Shown here in pieces: positions 26,559 through 58,871 of a DNA stretch of 64,000 bases (position 1 is the stretch's first letter; each line of letters starts with the position of its first letter). This DNA is from Synergistaceae bacterium (GTDB lineage Bacteria > Synergistota > Synergistia > Synergistales > Aminobacteriaceae): positions 1 to 64,000 of the forward strand of contig JAFSJJ010000005.1 of the NCBI GenBank assembly GCA_017439345.1. The letters are read 5' to 3'. The position numbers were made by a program, and so were the translations under genes. Below the pieces are notes generated by a model that was not told the origin of the DNA, made no database searches, and saw nothing but the letters and a program-made list of their open reading frames with translations.

Positions 26559-29500
26559 TTATCTTTTCTTTCTGAATGCCTTAAAGCTGCTCAGTAATAA
26601 CGCAAACGTTATCAAGCCGAGTCCCGTGTTGCAGCCGCCGCTTGAAGAAGTCATTATATTATTTCCGCTGATGCCTTCACTGTTCGCAGAGTCAAACGTC
26701 AAGACTTCAGCTTCTTCCCATTCATCACCGTCCGCAGATTTCTTAACGGTTATCTCAAAGTCTCCTTTAGGTGTCAAGCCTGCTATTGAGCTTACTGTTA
26801 CAATAGCCTCTTTGCCGTAGTTGCTGGGTGTAAATTCGTCCTCGCTGACAGTCTGAAGGGTAATATCAAGATAATCTCTGTCATCTGAGGCAGCATTATC
26901 CGCGTCAGACGTTAAAGCACTATCTTTCTTTACGCTCGAAATTATCCAGAAAACATTTTCATTTGCCCTGAGAGTGTAAGTTTTCGTTGCTGAGGTTGAA
27001 ACTATATTGTCAGGAATTTCCTCAAGTTCAAAATTAGGATCTTCGCCCTCGTAAAATTCTTCGTCAGAGGAAAGTATTTCGTCTTCAGTAATATTCTTTA
27101 TTCCGAACGTGATTAAATCTGCCTTAGCTGTTATATTTTCTGCATCTTTTATTAACTCTGCCGGCGAGATGGTGAATTTAACCTGGTTGTTTCCGTTGAA
27201 GAGTGCAATATCCTGCAGCATAAATACGTCCTCTACATCTTCGAAACTGAGATCATCGAGATTAACTATAGTATTAATACTTGCACCTGGAATTTTCTGC
27301 TTCCCTGACTGCGTTAATATATAGCCGACAAAGAAAGAATACGGGGTTTCAGGGCCGTTATAATTGAAATTCGCCGTTATAGGTACAAATGATTCGTCTT
27401 TATGCTCGAGAATGAAAGCTGCCATATCGTTTATTCTGCTGCCGTCAGCGTCAGTGAAGTACAAAGGAGTTAGGCTTACTGCGTCAGATGCATTTGCGCT
27501 GATTGACACTTCAGGATCACCAACATTATAGACGTAGAACGGATAAAAGCCCGTGTTATTTCCGCCGTAATCGTTAATCCTGCCGCTTGAGTAACGCGCC
27601 TCGTGAACTTCGTCTATATTATTTCCGGAGTCAACTTCGACATAGAGATAATATGCTTTCTTAGTTGTTGTAGAAGATGTGAGATTCGGTGTCCAGTTGA
27701 ATACTGCCCAGCCCTTGTTATTATTCTTGTCGTTGTTCCAGCCGCCGAGAGTCACGGTTACTTCTCCAATCTTGTGCTTGTCATTCTCTGTTATAGAAGA
27801 AAGATTGTTTATATTATCTATCCATGAGAGTTTGACTGTGAAATTTCCTGTATCCTTGAAGCTGGCGTTGTACAGAGGTACCCGAATTTCATAATTCTGT
27901 CCGTTCGCAAGCCTGTTATCTGTTAAGAAAGCAAAATCCGGAGCGTAGAATTTAATTCCCCTGATCTTCATTGCTGTCTCATCGTCAGTGTTAGCCCTGA
28001 AAGTGCTGCCGTCCTTAACGAACTTCAACGGAAGGTATAAAGCAGGGTCGGACTTCTGTTGATATAGACTGCTGCTGCGCCATAATTTAGCATTATTAGT
28101 GAGTTCTACAGCTGTTGCAAACGTCATAGCTCCTTCTTTTGCGACAAACGGCTGCATTTTGACCGTATAATTTGCTGCCTGCATAGATGTAAGATTTGAG
28201 CTGCCCATTAAACTGTAGCTGATTTTTTCGGTCTTGTTGTATTCCTTCGAGAACGTTTTCGGGTTATCACTGTCAGGCATTTTTATTCCTGTGGCTTTGT
28301 CTCCGTTAAAGAGCCTGTCAAAGAAACATACAGTTGAAGTAAACCCGCTCGGAGTAACTTTTGTTTCGGTGTGCTGCATATTACTCGCAGCTTTTGTGAA
28401 AGTAATTCCCGAAATGTCTGACGCGCTTCCGAATGTCCAAGTGTTCTCACCTGCGAGAAGTCCTGCCTCGTTATAACCTTCGACATCTGCAACGTGGGGC
28501 GGATATGAGAAGAAGTTACCCTCTTCATGAAGCGGTTGATACACAGAATCAGCTACTGAAGTTGACGTGTTAAGCGCAGAGTTTTCGCTCATTGTGAACG
28601 TTATGAAAAGCTCTTTGTCTCCCTTAACGGTGCCGGGGTCTTCAATTTGTGTAGAGTCAATTCTAGGTCCAAAAGCAAGCCACGTCGGGAGGGGTCTAGT
28701 CAGAACAGGATAACGCCATATATGCCTTGCAGTGTTGGTGAATAAAATTGCATCGTGAGTCGTTGCTGTAACGTTCTTGTCAATCGTTGTCGTTGATGTA
28801 TCACCGTTGGTATTCTCGTTAATTCTGTCGACTCTGTCCGTAAAGAAGTCCATCAAATCAGTAAGTCCTTCTGTCGGGCTGTCAGGCTTCCAGACCATGT
28901 TTTTCTTTTCTTCTGTAGTCATATTATCGATTTTTATACCGTGAGCAATACCGCCGATTGCAGATGCAAATCCTACAAGCCCCTTTACTGTTGCAAATGT
29001 TCCCTGTACTTTCTCGTCAGTTCCGGTAGGGTCAGCCGCAAACATTGTTTCAACAGACTGGCTCAAGTCCTGCTTTACTGTGTTTGTAGTGGAATCAGTC
29101 GTCGTTTTTCCGTATTCAACAGTCATATTACCGCCGTTAGAAGCATCGCTGTACGTGAAGTTTACGGGCTGTTCAGTGAGTGCCGTTCCATTCTCGTCTA
29201 CCGTATCAACGTGATAGGGAATTGCACTAAGAGCAGCAATATAACTTCTGTTTGACTTCTTCCTGATGTGTACAGGTGTACCGAGTTCAACACCCTCGCT
29301 TGCAAAATCAGCAGCTATGAGTCCGCGCCATGTCCCTCCGGATTTAGTATCCTGAATTGCGATTTTCCCATCTTCGAAACCGTCAAAAATTTTATTGCCT
29401 TTATCATCGGCTGTAACTTTTGTCTTGAAGATCGTTACGCAGTCAATACCGCCCGGCTTCTTCCACGCTACAGCAATATCATCAACTGTCTTGAATGTGC

Positions 29501-31203
29501 CGAGTGTACCAGTGAAAGCCCCTGCAGCTATCGAGAAATCAGTCAGAGCATACATGTGTGTTATGCCCTCAGGATTTATCCCCTCGTTCTTGTTTAAGTG
29601 CTCTAATGCTGGTACGTCTGTCCAAAAGCAGAAGCGATCCAAGTGAGGCTGATCCATAAGGAGCCTTTTGTCTTTGTCCTGAGCGAGGTCATACAGCGGA
29701 CCGTAATTATATTTTGAGCTTTCGCCTCCGCCCTTTACGTGAGCATCATCATGAACCGGTGTCAGCGGATTCTTCGAATCTGAACTATTATCGAATTTCC
29801 AGACAGTAAGATGCGGGTAAGCGCAGAACTCATCTTCTCTGGAAGGGAATTGTCCTTCGGCGTTCCACACCTTACGATGAAAATATCCGAGCAGAAGAGT
29901 AACAATCTCGTCCTTGCCATCGCCGTCGAGGTCAGCCGCAGCCGCTCTCAATCCTGCAACTCCAGCAACTTTTGCGCAGGGATTTAAATCGAAAGTACCA
30001 TTGATAAGCTCTTCTTTATTGTATGCCTTAGCGGTCTCTGTTGTGTCGAAGTCACGTTTCTCGGCGTTCCACTTATGAATTTTACAGTGTATTGCGCCTG
30101 TCATTGGTCCGTTCGGCCAGCCCTTTTCGTTCGCGAGGCTTGGGGCTCTGACTGGAATTTTGAAAAGTAAAGCAATTTCGCTCGTGCCGTCTCCGTCAAA
30201 ATCTCCTGCTACCATATCTGTTACCGGCTGGCTTTCAAGATCATTCCCCCACTGATCTGTGGCGAAAACGTGAATCCCGCTTGGATCGCCAAGAGACTTC
30301 AGCTCCAATTTTCCGTTTGAGAAAATCAATCTGTAAACGAAAATATAAATATCATTTCTCGTGTTAATCATCAGGGCTGCTTCGTTGTTATGTTTATCTC
30401 CGTCAAAATCTCCGACTGCAAGCGATACGATTTTCATATCACCTCTGAAAGGAGTTTCGTTCGTCAATGCAGTTAAAGGCTCCTGAGTCATTTTGCCTTC
30501 ACTGTCAGCGTTGAGTGCGAAAAATTCAAGCCGTATTGCCTTATCAAGCTGAGACGGGTTATTCGGACCTGAAGCAGCTACAAAAATTTCACGATCATAG
30601 CCCTTGACTTCCATAACACCTGTTCCAAATACCTGAACTACAAAACCTGAGTGCACATTTGAAAACGCAGGCAGTGTATATTCTCCGAAATCCGAAATTT
30701 GGACGGAATTAACAAGCTCGCTCGGTGTCGTTCCTGTTGTATGAGATGTCCTGTTATTAGAAAGAGTCTTGAAGTAATACTTAGCTTCGCCGTTGGGAGC
30801 TAAATTATGATACATCAATGCCCGTTTGCCGTTGTAGAGTCTGCGCGATACAGCAGGTCTGAGATAGTGAGGCTCCTGTGCGCTCCAAGAAAACTGGCGT
30901 GAAGCATTTGAATTATGAAAAATTGTCCGTGTCGATAATGAAGTGTCTTTGCCAAACGTCGTAGCGAATACATCAACATCATCAATTTTGTCTCCGCCTC
31001 TGATGGTGATTAGACCCTTCTTAGCGAGTGTGAGTTCACCGTTCACTTCTTTGACAACGTCGTCAACATCTCCGATTGCTTTACCGTTGATTGTCTGCGC
31101 TGCCTCAGAAATTACCCCCCCCCCCCATGTAGGGAGAAATACTTAATAGAGCAGATAATACTAACACAGAGAAAAACTTAAGATTAACTTTAACTTTTTG
31201 CAT
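26559..31203 (-). CDS. Large Synergist-CTERM surface protein, out of frame at a G12 tract
   Basis: A surface protein of about 1,540 residues. The main frame (26559-31046 and some way upstream) has FG-GAP/VCBS-like loops (VGDFDGDKHNNEA, AGDFDGDGTSEIALLF, AADLDGDGKDEIVTLL), a long beta-rich middle, and ends in GGCNTGLGLITFALLLSS plus a basic tail, a Synergist-CTERM-type sorting signal. Its own signal peptide starts at ATG 31203 after an AGGAGG site (MQKVKVNLKFFSVLVLSALL). That frame meets a run of 12 G residues and stops 4 codons past the expected join. With 11 G the two frames fuse and read through MGGGVISEAAQ. In the state shown the gene should be off. The alternative start GTG 31046 would give an unexported protein and has no good ribosome-binding site. 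Confidence 0.85.
31115..31126 (-). repeat. G12 homopolymer in the coding region (candidate phase switch)
   Basis: Twelve consecutive C on the plus strand (G on the coding strand) lie between the signal-peptide frame and the body of the surface protein. 11 or 14 G puts them in frame, while 12 (as here) or 13 does not. Confidence 0.9.
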
Positions 31204-31242
31204 AAAATTTTTACCTCCTAGTTCATAAATAAATTATCACAA

Positions 31243-55981: not shown

Positions 55982-57436
55982 TTATCGGACAAAATATCTT
56001 GCTCGAGTCCTGATCTCGTGAATCCGCCTTGTGATTCTTACGCGCCTTATGTAGAAAAATACTGCGCCAAGAATTATCCAGAGTAAGAGCATTACATACG
56101 AGGGCCATTGAAGCGAGTACTCCGGCCATATCGGAATTAAGAGCATTAAGGCAAATATAACGCAGAATACAAAGCCCGCTATTCCGAATATAATCATGTC
56201 CCTGCGCTTCTCGCTCAAGGCAAATTTTACGGCTGATAACGATGTGTAAGCCATGCCTACAGCTCCGCCGATTGATGATATATCGACTAACCAGTTCAAC
56301 GCATTACGGCCGATGAACGGGGCAAAGAGTGATACGCTCATGCAGAATAGTACTGCATTATAAGGCACGCTGTTATTGTTCAAGTTCATGAACCATGACG
56401 GAATTAATCTGTCTCTAGCCATTGAGTATAATAATCTTCCTGCCGCAATGTAGAAGCCTAATATTGACGTTAATATCGCCATCAATGCACCAAGAGCCAT
56501 TAATAACACTCCTGCACTGCCGAGAACTTTTTCTGCTGCCGAGAATGTCGCTATGCTGACGACTCCTTTCAAGTCCTGAACGTCCCGGACATAATCAACC
56601 CAGTTGTCATAGTTTGAAGGCGTTCCCCATGCTGCAATGAATATTAATATTATGTACACTGCACAGCCTGCTAATATCGTCGTGTCCATGATTGCTTTGA
56701 TGCTCTCATGAGAGAAATCTGACTCTTCAGTGAGTAACGGCACTATGTCAAAGCCTTTGAATGCCCACGGAGCTAACACAAGAACTGACATTATCTGAAC
56801 GATATATCTTACGGGAGACTCTGACTCTTTCAGCGGGTGAAACATAGGCAGCAAATCTTTTGAGTCAGTCGCAGGACTCGCGATTATACCTGCAAGATTT
56901 ATCATCACTGCAAGCACTAGAAATATCACGAATACAGTTTGAATCCTTCCGGCTGAGTCAGAACCCATTATGCTTACCAATGCCATGATAACGAGTACTG
57001 CAACTGCAAGAATTAATTCTCCGGTGTAAATCTCATAGCCTGCTGACCTGTAAAGATACCCGAACTGGAACACGCTGCCTGATAATGCTCGAAATATAAT
57101 ACTCAATGCCGTAGCGTTAATCGGGATCAAAGTTATATAGCACAGACACAGGAACCACGCGCATATATAGCCGTGAACGACTCCGAATGCTTTTCTTGCG
57201 TAGATAAACTGTCCGCCTGAAACAGGGAACTTGCGAATCATGTAATCATAGCTGTATGAAATTATGAGCATGATAAACGCAGCCGCTTCCATAGCTATTA
57301 AAGCTCCCATAGGCCCAGCCTTGTGTAAAAAATTTCTGCCGGGCATTATGAAAGCTCCTGAACCTATTATGCAGCCGAACGCTAAAGACCATACCCCTAA
57401 TATTCCGATACTCTTTTTAAGGTGCTTGTTATCCAT
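55982..57436 (-). CDS. APC-family amino acid permease (copy 2)
   Basis: A 484-residue transporter with about 12 membrane segments, of the amino acid-polyamine-organocation superfamily. The N-terminal segment IGILGVWSLAFGCIIGSGAFIMPGRNFL carries the GSG substrate-binding break typical of the first helix. FPVSGGQFIYARKAFG and the FKGFDIVPLLTEESDFS segment in helix 6 follow. It is a close paralogue of the upstream gene, with the same motif order. Its ATG is 4 bases beyond the stop of that gene, just after a G12 tract. Substrate not known. Confidence 0.9.
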   Translation of the reverse strand: MDNKHLKKSIGILGVWSLAFGCIIGSGAFIMPGRNFLHKAGPMGALIAMEAAAFIMLIISYSYDYMIRKFPVSGGQFIYARKAFGVVHGYICAWFLCLCYITLIPINATALSIIFRALSGSVFQFGYLYRSAGYEIYTGELILAVAVLVIMALVSIMGSDSAGRIQTVFVIFLVLAVMINLAGIIASPATDSKDLLPMFHPLKESESPVRYIVQIMSVLVLAPWAFKGFDIVPLLTEESDFSHESIKAIMDTTILAGCAVYIILIFIAAWGTPSNYDNWVDYVRDVQDLKGVVSIATFSAAEKVLGSAGVLLMALGALMAILTSILGFYIAAGRLLYSMARDRLIPSWFMNLNNNSVPYNAVLFCMSVSLFAPFIGRNALNWLVDISSIGGAVGMAYTSLSAVKFALSEKRRDMIIFGIAGFVFCVIFALMLLIPIWPEYSLQWPSYVMLLLWIILGAVFFYIRRVRITRRIHEIRTRARYFVR

Positions 57437-57440
57437 TGCG

Positions 57441-58871
57441 CTATTCTACCCCCCCCCCCCTTCTCGTATTAAATACTAATCCTATTGCCGTCCAGATTAT
57501 TAATAAGATATAAGACTCATTGCTAAGTGAGACATTGAGACCAGGAATTGGAACGAGAAGCAATACTCCCATTGAGAGAGAAAATATAAAGCCTAATGCT
57601 CCGAATATGATTATGTCGATTCGTTTTTCTTTGAAAGCATATTTACACGCTGATATTGAAGTGTAGGCAAATCCTATTGAAGCTCCTATCGAGGCCATAT
57701 CGAACACCCAGCCCATGACAGCACGCCCTAACAGACACGTAGCACCTGATACAAAGGCGCAGAACATTCCTGCATGAGTGGGGACTCCGTGTTTATTGAG
57801 ATAACCGAACCATGAGGGAATCATTTTATCTCTTGACATCGCGTAAAGAAGTCTGCTCGTTGCCGTGTAGAAGCCTATTATTCCAGTGAACATTGCAGTT
57901 AATACAGAAGCAGTGATTAAATATAATCCGTATTTGCCCATGACTGAATTAGCTGCATTTAGAGTCGGTATTGCCCGGACTCCTGAGAGATTCCCTAAGT
58001 CATCGATATAGTCAACCCAGCTGACATAGCCGTTAGGGATAACTGAAGCTGCAAGAAAAGTCAATGCGATATAAACGAACACTCCGCATAAAATACTTGT
58101 ATCCATGACAATTTTTGTGCTCTCGGGCGAGAAGTCCGACTCTTCCATTAACTGAGGCACAGTGTCAAAGCCTACGAACGATTGAGGCCCCGTTACATAG
58201 ACTGCAATGATCTGAGCGAATATTCCCTTAGTAAAGATCGAAGTCTCAGGGTGAAACATGGGAAGCATATTCTCAGCCGTTGAATTCGGACTGAACACAG
58301 CTCCTGACATGACGATTAATATTCCGCCCAGCAAAATCATAACGAATAGAGTCTGGAGTCTTCCTGTGAACTGGACTCCCCGTGAGTCAATCAAAGCAAA
58401 GATAATTAACGCCGACAGAGCTATTAACATTTCGCCTGAATATACTTCATAGCCTGCAATTTCGTAATGAAGTCCGAACCTGAACACGTCCCCGAAGACT
58501 GCACGCAATATTAAATTCAATGCCGTAGCGTTCAACGGGATAACAGATAGATACGAGAGACTCAAGAACCATGCGCATATAAATCCGTGATGGACTCCGA
58601 AAGCCCGCTTTGCATAGATAAACTCTCCGCCTGTCATTGGAAATTTCTTTATCATGTAACTGTAACTGTACGAGATGATAAGCATTACGAAGGCAGCAAT
58701 CTGCATAGCTATCAGAGTCCCGAGAGGCCCTGCATTCTTCAGAAAGAGATTACCAGGCATTACGAAAGCACTCCAGCCGATTACGCACCCGAATGCCAGC
58801 GACCATACGTTTAACGGAGTGAGTCTTCTGTTGAGATGTACTTCATCTGAGCTAAAGTTAAAGAACAGCAT
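57441..58871 (-). CDS. APC-family amino acid permease (copy 1)
   Basis: A 476-residue APC transporter paralogous to the next gene: LNVWSLAFGCVIGWSAFVMPGNLFL, FPMTGGEFIYAKRAFGVHHG and VGFDTVPQLMEESDFSPE. In helix 1 the usual GSG break reads GWS, a difference from its paralogue at the substrate-binding site. The C-terminus ends in RRGGGVE, encoded by a run of 12 G just before the stop, so its tail and its spacing to the next gene depend on that tract. The two genes are probably a tandem duplication with diverged specificity. Confidence 0.9.
   Translation of the reverse strand: MLFFNFSSDEVHLNRRLTPLNVWSLAFGCVIGWSAFVMPGNLFLKNAGPLGTLIAMQIAAFVMLIISYSYSYMIKKFPMTGGEFIYAKRAFGVHHGFICAWFLSLSYLSVIPLNATALNLILRAVFGDVFRFGLHYEIAGYEVYSGEMLIALSALIIFALIDSRGVQFTGRLQTLFVMILLGGILIVMSGAVFSPNSTAENMLPMFHPETSIFTKGIFAQIIAVYVTGPQSFVGFDTVPQLMEESDFSPESTKIVMDTSILCGVFVYIALTFLAASVIPNGYVSWVDYIDDLGNLSGVRAIPTLNAANSVMGKYGLYLITASVLTAMFTGIIGFYTATSRLLYAMSRDKMIPSWFGYLNKHGVPTHAGMFCAFVSGATCLLGRAVMGWVFDMASIGASIGFAYTSISACKYAFKEKRIDIIIFGALGFIFSLSMGVLLLVPIPGLNVSLSNESYILLIIWTAIGLVFNTRRGGGVE
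57449..57460 (-). repeat. G12 homopolymer at the end of permease copy 1
   Basis: Twelve consecutive C on the plus strand (G on the coding strand). With 12 the gene ends GGGVE-stop. With 11 it stops two residues earlier. With 13 it runs about 17 codons further, into the start of the next gene. It is the second G12 tract in the window. Confidence 0.9.

Follow-up and report, generated by a model that had tools for sequence, protein, structure and literature searches.

How is a surface protein made when a run of G residues places its signal peptide out of frame with its body? Such a gene lies on the minus strand of the window, the whole 64,000-nucleotide stretch of DNA analysed here. The questions it raises are whether the run of 12 G is an on/off switch, and what determines where such runs occur.

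Reading frames around the G12 tract

On the minus strand, an AGGAGG Shine-Dalgarno sequence (31214..31219) precedes an ATG at 31203-31201, from which a signal-peptide frame of 32 codons plus stop (31105..31203) reads MQKVKVNLKFFSVLVLSALLSISPYMGGGGNF. This frame passes through exactly 12 G (31126-31115), followed by TAATTTCTGA, and ends at a stop (31107-31105) three codons past the tract, which is the off state. The body of the surface protein (26559..31112, minus strand), 1,517 codons plus stop with FG-GAP repeats, ends with SSSGGCNTG and then a hydrophobic and basic tail. With 11 G instead of 12, the signal-peptide frame continues into GGGVISEAAQTINGKA and reaches the stop at 26559, giving a protein of 1,547 amino acids in total.

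The arrangement described in the initial annotation, a G12 tract set between an AGGAGG, ATG and signal-peptide frame and a large surface-protein frame that one G fewer would fuse, was confirmed by the sequence. Its labeling of the product as a Synergist-CTERM protein was unsupported, as the TIGR04564 profile gives 7.8 bits, below the curated cut-off of 22.5 bits; two further surface proteins of the same genome, likewise tract-bearing, score 21.7 and 18.9 bits, near the cut-off. When a relative of the surface protein with a solved structure was sought, none was found.

Every contingency-locus feature that can be tested from sequence is present at the G12 locus. The homopolymer is of hypermutable length (at least 8 G) and lies inside the signal-peptide frame, a change of one unit joins or separates the full-length frame, and tracts of this kind exceed chance and are concentrated in surface-related genes, as presented below.

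Long G tracts across the genome

The window belongs to a 2.54-Mb assembly of 46 contigs (G000), in which 0.01 runs of at least 12 G are expected by a Markov-1 model. In the window, G8 was matched 10 times, compared with 0.18 expected from shuffles of the window. Across G000, 53 tracts of at least 8 and 49 of at least 9 were found, where first-order Markov expectations are 5 and 0.9, respectively. The counts for lengths 8 to 15 are 4, 12, 10, 11, 9, 4, 2, and 1. G7 is nearly absent, as 25 G6 runs and one G7 run occur in the 367 kb sampled around the tracts, from which the G000 counts for G1-G7 were scaled. Because the length distribution is bimodal, it is not the tail of a random composition, and a chance homopolymer was ruled out by the window shuffles and the Markov expectation. 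The census suggests that the G12 tract is one of about 50 likely on/off poly-G switches genome-wide. One G8 (L062, near 3003) lies within a low-complexity, GGTCCTGG-rich stretch, outside the motif-bearing set described below, and was excluded from the motif analysis.

Among 52 examined tracts, 34 join two open halves at some length within one G, with Gs coding in 30 and Cs coding in 4, and the other 18 are non-coding. As assembled, 27 of the 34 coding tracts are off and 7 are on. By Pfam, the interrupted genes encode glycosyltransferases of families 1, 2, 6, and 10, Gly_transf_sug, Caps_synth (capsule synthesis), LicD, PEP mutase with CTP transferase, TylF, FkbM and further methyltransferases (O-methyltransferases among them), as well as SIS, asparagine synthase, GDSL, AlgX-like, and radical SAM proteins. 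Surface proteins with List_Bact_rpt, LRR, or FG-GAP repeats are also interrupted, and two surface-protein paralogues of G000 carry tracts inside the signal peptide (L093) or just past it (L082). These are classic contingency genes, for surface glycans and surface proteins.

Orthologues and related genomes

Orthologues of the window protein are found across the genus with 60-66% identity over the full length. In six species (G030, G031, G002, G004, G010, and G014), the signal peptide has no long tract and is in frame. In the same signal-peptide region, the G022 orthologue has GGGTG11 and that of the more distant G019 has G11, both in frame. The initial annotation had held that relatives in frame with no homopolymer would speak against a switch. 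Such relatives do exist, but others have tracts at the same place, and the six species indicate nothing more than gain and loss of the tract by lineage.

It had also proposed a comparison of tract length among relatives, and the lengths do differ, at the signal peptide as well as in the PEP-mutase gene. Orthologues of the latter are 77-88% identical, one further copy having been masked in the comparison. The tract is G13 in G000 and G12 in two other species, all three out of frame, whereas a fourth species has an interrupted GGGTG8 in frame and six species have no tract.

If the gene were a decaying pseudogene with a chance homopolymer, its signal peptide and body would be out of frame, as they are in the assembly. 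We consider this highly improbable, since the 1,517 codons are undisrupted, the full-length similarity is to intact orthologues, and the tracts are far above chance.

Tracts of at least 9 occur in 43 of the 43 genomes of the genus, 2 to 56 per genome; G027, G062, and G000 are tract-rich, and G020 and G019 are tract-poor. The genus consists of ruminant-gut metagenome-assembled genomes (MAGs) that are rumen ‘Fretibacterium’-like, and relatives have been deposited under the names Fretibacterium or Synergistaceae. Elsewhere in the order, tract counts are mostly low. The sampled tracts of G071 and G057, genomes from beyond the family that are high-count or complete, lie in sequence of 65% GC and are nearly all 9-11 long. 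The genome-wide and genus-wide evidence supports the earlier proposal of a surface-protein switch of the poly-G type that is off as sequenced.

One G017 contig (C109, L036) ends in a homopolymer of 17 bases, with C as the coding-strand base, at the precise position of the orthologue's signal peptide. The strand on which it lies points to a read-end sequencing artefact rather than a native tract, and it looks like an artefact of two-colour chemistry.

This contig end, with G17 on the wrong strand, lends some weight to the reading that the real tract at the window gene is a fixed 11 G and that the gene is always on, the 12th G being an assembly or sequencing error, as does the fact that homopolymer lengths are error-prone and that the assembly is a MAG. 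On the whole this is unlikely. Error would have to account for 53 tracts that have continuous flanks and a common motif, for orthologous tracts that vary in length, one of them interrupted, and for the frame of 27 of 34 coding tracts being shifted, some in one direction and some in the other. A one-G error confined to the G12 tract is conceivable, and that this single MAG tract may be one G off counts against a switch that is off as sequenced.

A motif upstream of the tracts

When the tracts were aligned, a common AT-rich sequence appeared immediately 5′ of them, on the G strand. A Gibbs sampler gave the consensus TACGTAATTTTACCTA over the G000 tracts. At the window gene, the motif is TAAGTATTTCTCCCTA (31130..31145, minus strand), 3 bp before the G12 tract, and its 12-mer core ATTAAGTATTTC (31136-31147, minus strand) scores 11.7 bits. 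In 35 of the 52 tracts, the end of the core is separated from the tract by 9-11 bp. The motif log-likelihood is 506, compared with 351-377 for eight sets of controls drawn from the same loci. Against its reverse complement, the profile shows a correlation of 0.57-0.77 at the best offset, and the motif is consistent with a degenerate, roughly palindromic two-fold site, TACGTA-N4-TACNTA.

The motif is also found in other species of the genus. With the G000-trained motif, scores of at least 6 occur upstream of 65% of the tracts in G017 (2.6% at random positions), 22% in G032, and 18% in G061 (~1% at random positions for both). A pattern search of 151 genomes gave 48 matches in the genus (16 in G000 and 32 in others) against 1 for the backwards pattern, while other genera gave 4 matches against 3 backwards, no excess. 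De novo searches by species yielded the same motif in G017, G061, G022, and G027 and a weak one in G062 and G032. The upstream motif is absent from the sampled tracts of the tract-rich G026. There, TA follows 15 of the 15 sampled tracts (L344-L377), which are 9 (nine), 11 (five), or 10 (one) long. The G057 and G071 tracts, mostly 9 long in these GC-rich genomes, have no motif, ruling out that the motif is a general companion of long G-runs.

The motif is a feature of DNA, because it is found in each of the three reading phases (10, 6, and 6), with either gene direction, and at non-coding sites. It is equally strong at non-coding and coding tracts, and keeps to the G strand even when the gene occupies the opposite strand. 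Both a constraint from protein coding and a signal in RNA were thereby ruled out. The same observations bear on slippage of RNA polymerase or the ribosome at the tract, by which some full-length protein would always be made with no switch at the DNA level. A G12 run can slip during transcription, and slippage of this kind would agree with many genes being out of frame simultaneously. We nevertheless regard it as improbable, as the motif stays on the DNA G strand even though the Cs are coding in at least 4 tracts and another 18 have no coding role. Duplication of flanking sequence from one side of the tract to the other, direct or inverted, was rejected as well, matched pairs being no better than permuted ones.

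Tract-free orthologues are mostly devoid of the motif, so motif and tract tend to come or go jointly. In a stronger form of the explanation preferred below, a dedicated, sequence-specific process makes or lengthens the G-tracts: a factor would recognize the palindromic motif and add Gs or provoke slippage at a fixed 3′ distance, and the contingency genes would be where the products are tolerated. Several observations argue for it. Spacing between motif and tract is fixed and species-specific (1 bp in 14 of the 22 G022 tracts), and G6-G7 intermediates are nearly absent. Motif and tract were gained or lost jointly in three genes. Motif sites scoring at least 12 number 28 just upstream of tracts, and strong sites elsewhere are at or below chance, 16 being found away from tracts against 32 in a third-order Markov simulation. 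There is a preference downstream too, with A at +2 in 70-73%. On the other hand, the process is without a candidate enzyme, the motif is degenerate, FAD-gene relatives have a partial motif and no tract, and a passive cis-element combined with selection fits the same facts. It is conceivable, though doubtful, that the genus has such a hypermutation system, in which a putative motif-bound factor makes or maintains poly-G at a species-specific downstream distance. If it does, phase-variable sites would be set by a target sequence rather than by chance slippage.

Proposed mechanism and relation to known systems

The G12 tract is very probably a simple-sequence contingency locus within a genome-wide poly-G set that has the motif as a cis-element. 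Slipped-strand mispairing at replication would alter the tract length reversibly, by one G each time. Lengths of 8, 11, and 14 would bring signal peptide and surface protein into one frame, and the remaining lengths would halt translation after some 30 codons, so that expression would follow tract length. The ~50 switches would together diversify surface glycans and surface proteins in this rumen genus of Synergistota. The motif, a few bp 5′ of the tract, may be a DNA-level cis-element that favours tract birth or upkeep as a binding site for a protein, a pause site, or a nick site. Counting against this explanation are the motif-free tracts of G026 and the weak motif matches in G062 and G032.

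Campylobacter is without MutS1 and MutL. Unlike Campylobacter, G000 has both (MutS1, 835 bits; MutL, 405 bits), which rules out mismatch-repair loss. Tract instability, if real, is therefore unexplained by absent mismatch repair, and the two proteins should slow slippage, which also counts against a contingency locus.

In Haemophilus influenzae, lic1 (LicD) is phase-variable via a tetranucleotide repeat, and poly-G genes are known in Neisseria. Here too a LicD-family gene (L103) is interrupted, and the frame switch is near the 5′ end. Unlike in lic1, the L103 tract is G11 rather than a tetranucleotide repeat, and the lineage and the other genes differ.

The closer likeness is to the poly-G/C phasome of Campylobacter jejuni, where PhasomeIt found a median of 20 tracts per genome, mostly 9-10 long (PMC6321876). 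As in that phasome, tens of G-tracts per genome lie in glycan, methyltransferase, and surface genes, and tract length sets whether the gene is in or out of frame. The differences are in phylum, in tract number and length (~50 here, centred on 9-12), and in the companion palindromic motif with a preferred spacing, which PMC6321876, the published description through which Campylobacter was compared, does not mention. Campylobacter phages have hypermutable poly-G tracts (Sorensen 2021, cited in PMC11868660) and resemble the present case in that poly-G tracts switch surface-binding functions. There the tracts lie in phage genes; motif and tract of the present genome together gave no match in viral contigs (IMG/VR, one pattern). 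In 100 kb of Campylobacter phage sequence, zero tracts of at least G7 were found.

The best reading of the comparison is Campylobacter-like slipped-strand phase variation, with the motif probably marking where tracts arise or persist. Literature searches, which many subscription papers lay beyond, found nothing relevant on phase variation in Fretibacterium or Synergistota, and no description of a comparable motif at poly-G switches. As far as could be found, novelty lies in the phylum, in how dense the tracts are, in their coexistence with mismatch-repair genes, and most of all in the motif; compared with other poly-G systems by their description, these are the first contingency tracts with a common cis-motif at a preferred spacing. 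They extend the large poly-G phasome to another phylum, through an uncultured commensal of the ruminant gut that possesses mismatch-repair genes. A cis-motif with a preferred spacing makes an old question testable, whether tracts result from chance slippage and selection or from sequence-specific placement, and gives a means to predict switch sites in metagenome-assembled genomes. The initial annotation had recognized the poly-G switch, but beside the unsupported family label it had overlooked the genome and genus scale, the upstream motif, and a second G12 tract in the window.

Further tract-bearing loci

In a surface-protein gene of G000 (L102:778-3113, contig C45), the first of two signal peptides contains a G9 tract, and the second is followed by a ubiquitin domain that shares ~90% identity with eukaryotic ubiquitin across 69 residues. 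The domain is without the terminal RLRGG, and List_Bact_rpt and LRR repeats come next. The ubiquitin appears to have been acquired horizontally, and the surface protein that carries it may be switchable.

L071:381-2981 is predicted to encode a secreted protein that contains an aerolysin-like domain (PF01117, E 8e-7). Close to the 5′ end of the gene, the non-coding strand holds a G/C tract accompanied by a strong motif. In two paralogous intergenic regions (L065 near 3027 and L091 near 3060), the tract shortly precedes a TATAAT-like box, so promoter-type switches may occur in addition to frame-type ones.

The second G12 tract of the window (57449..57460, minus strand) falls within the final codons of a gene for an amino-acid permease (57441..58871, minus strand), whose C-terminus depends on the tract, and its companion motif GATTAGTATTTA (57470..57481, minus strand) scores 5.4 bits. 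The G12 is 13 bp ahead of the ATG of a paralogous permease (region 57436-57460). A change in tract length alters the C-terminal tail and shifts the stop with respect to the start that follows, with a possible effect on translational coupling of the two permeases.
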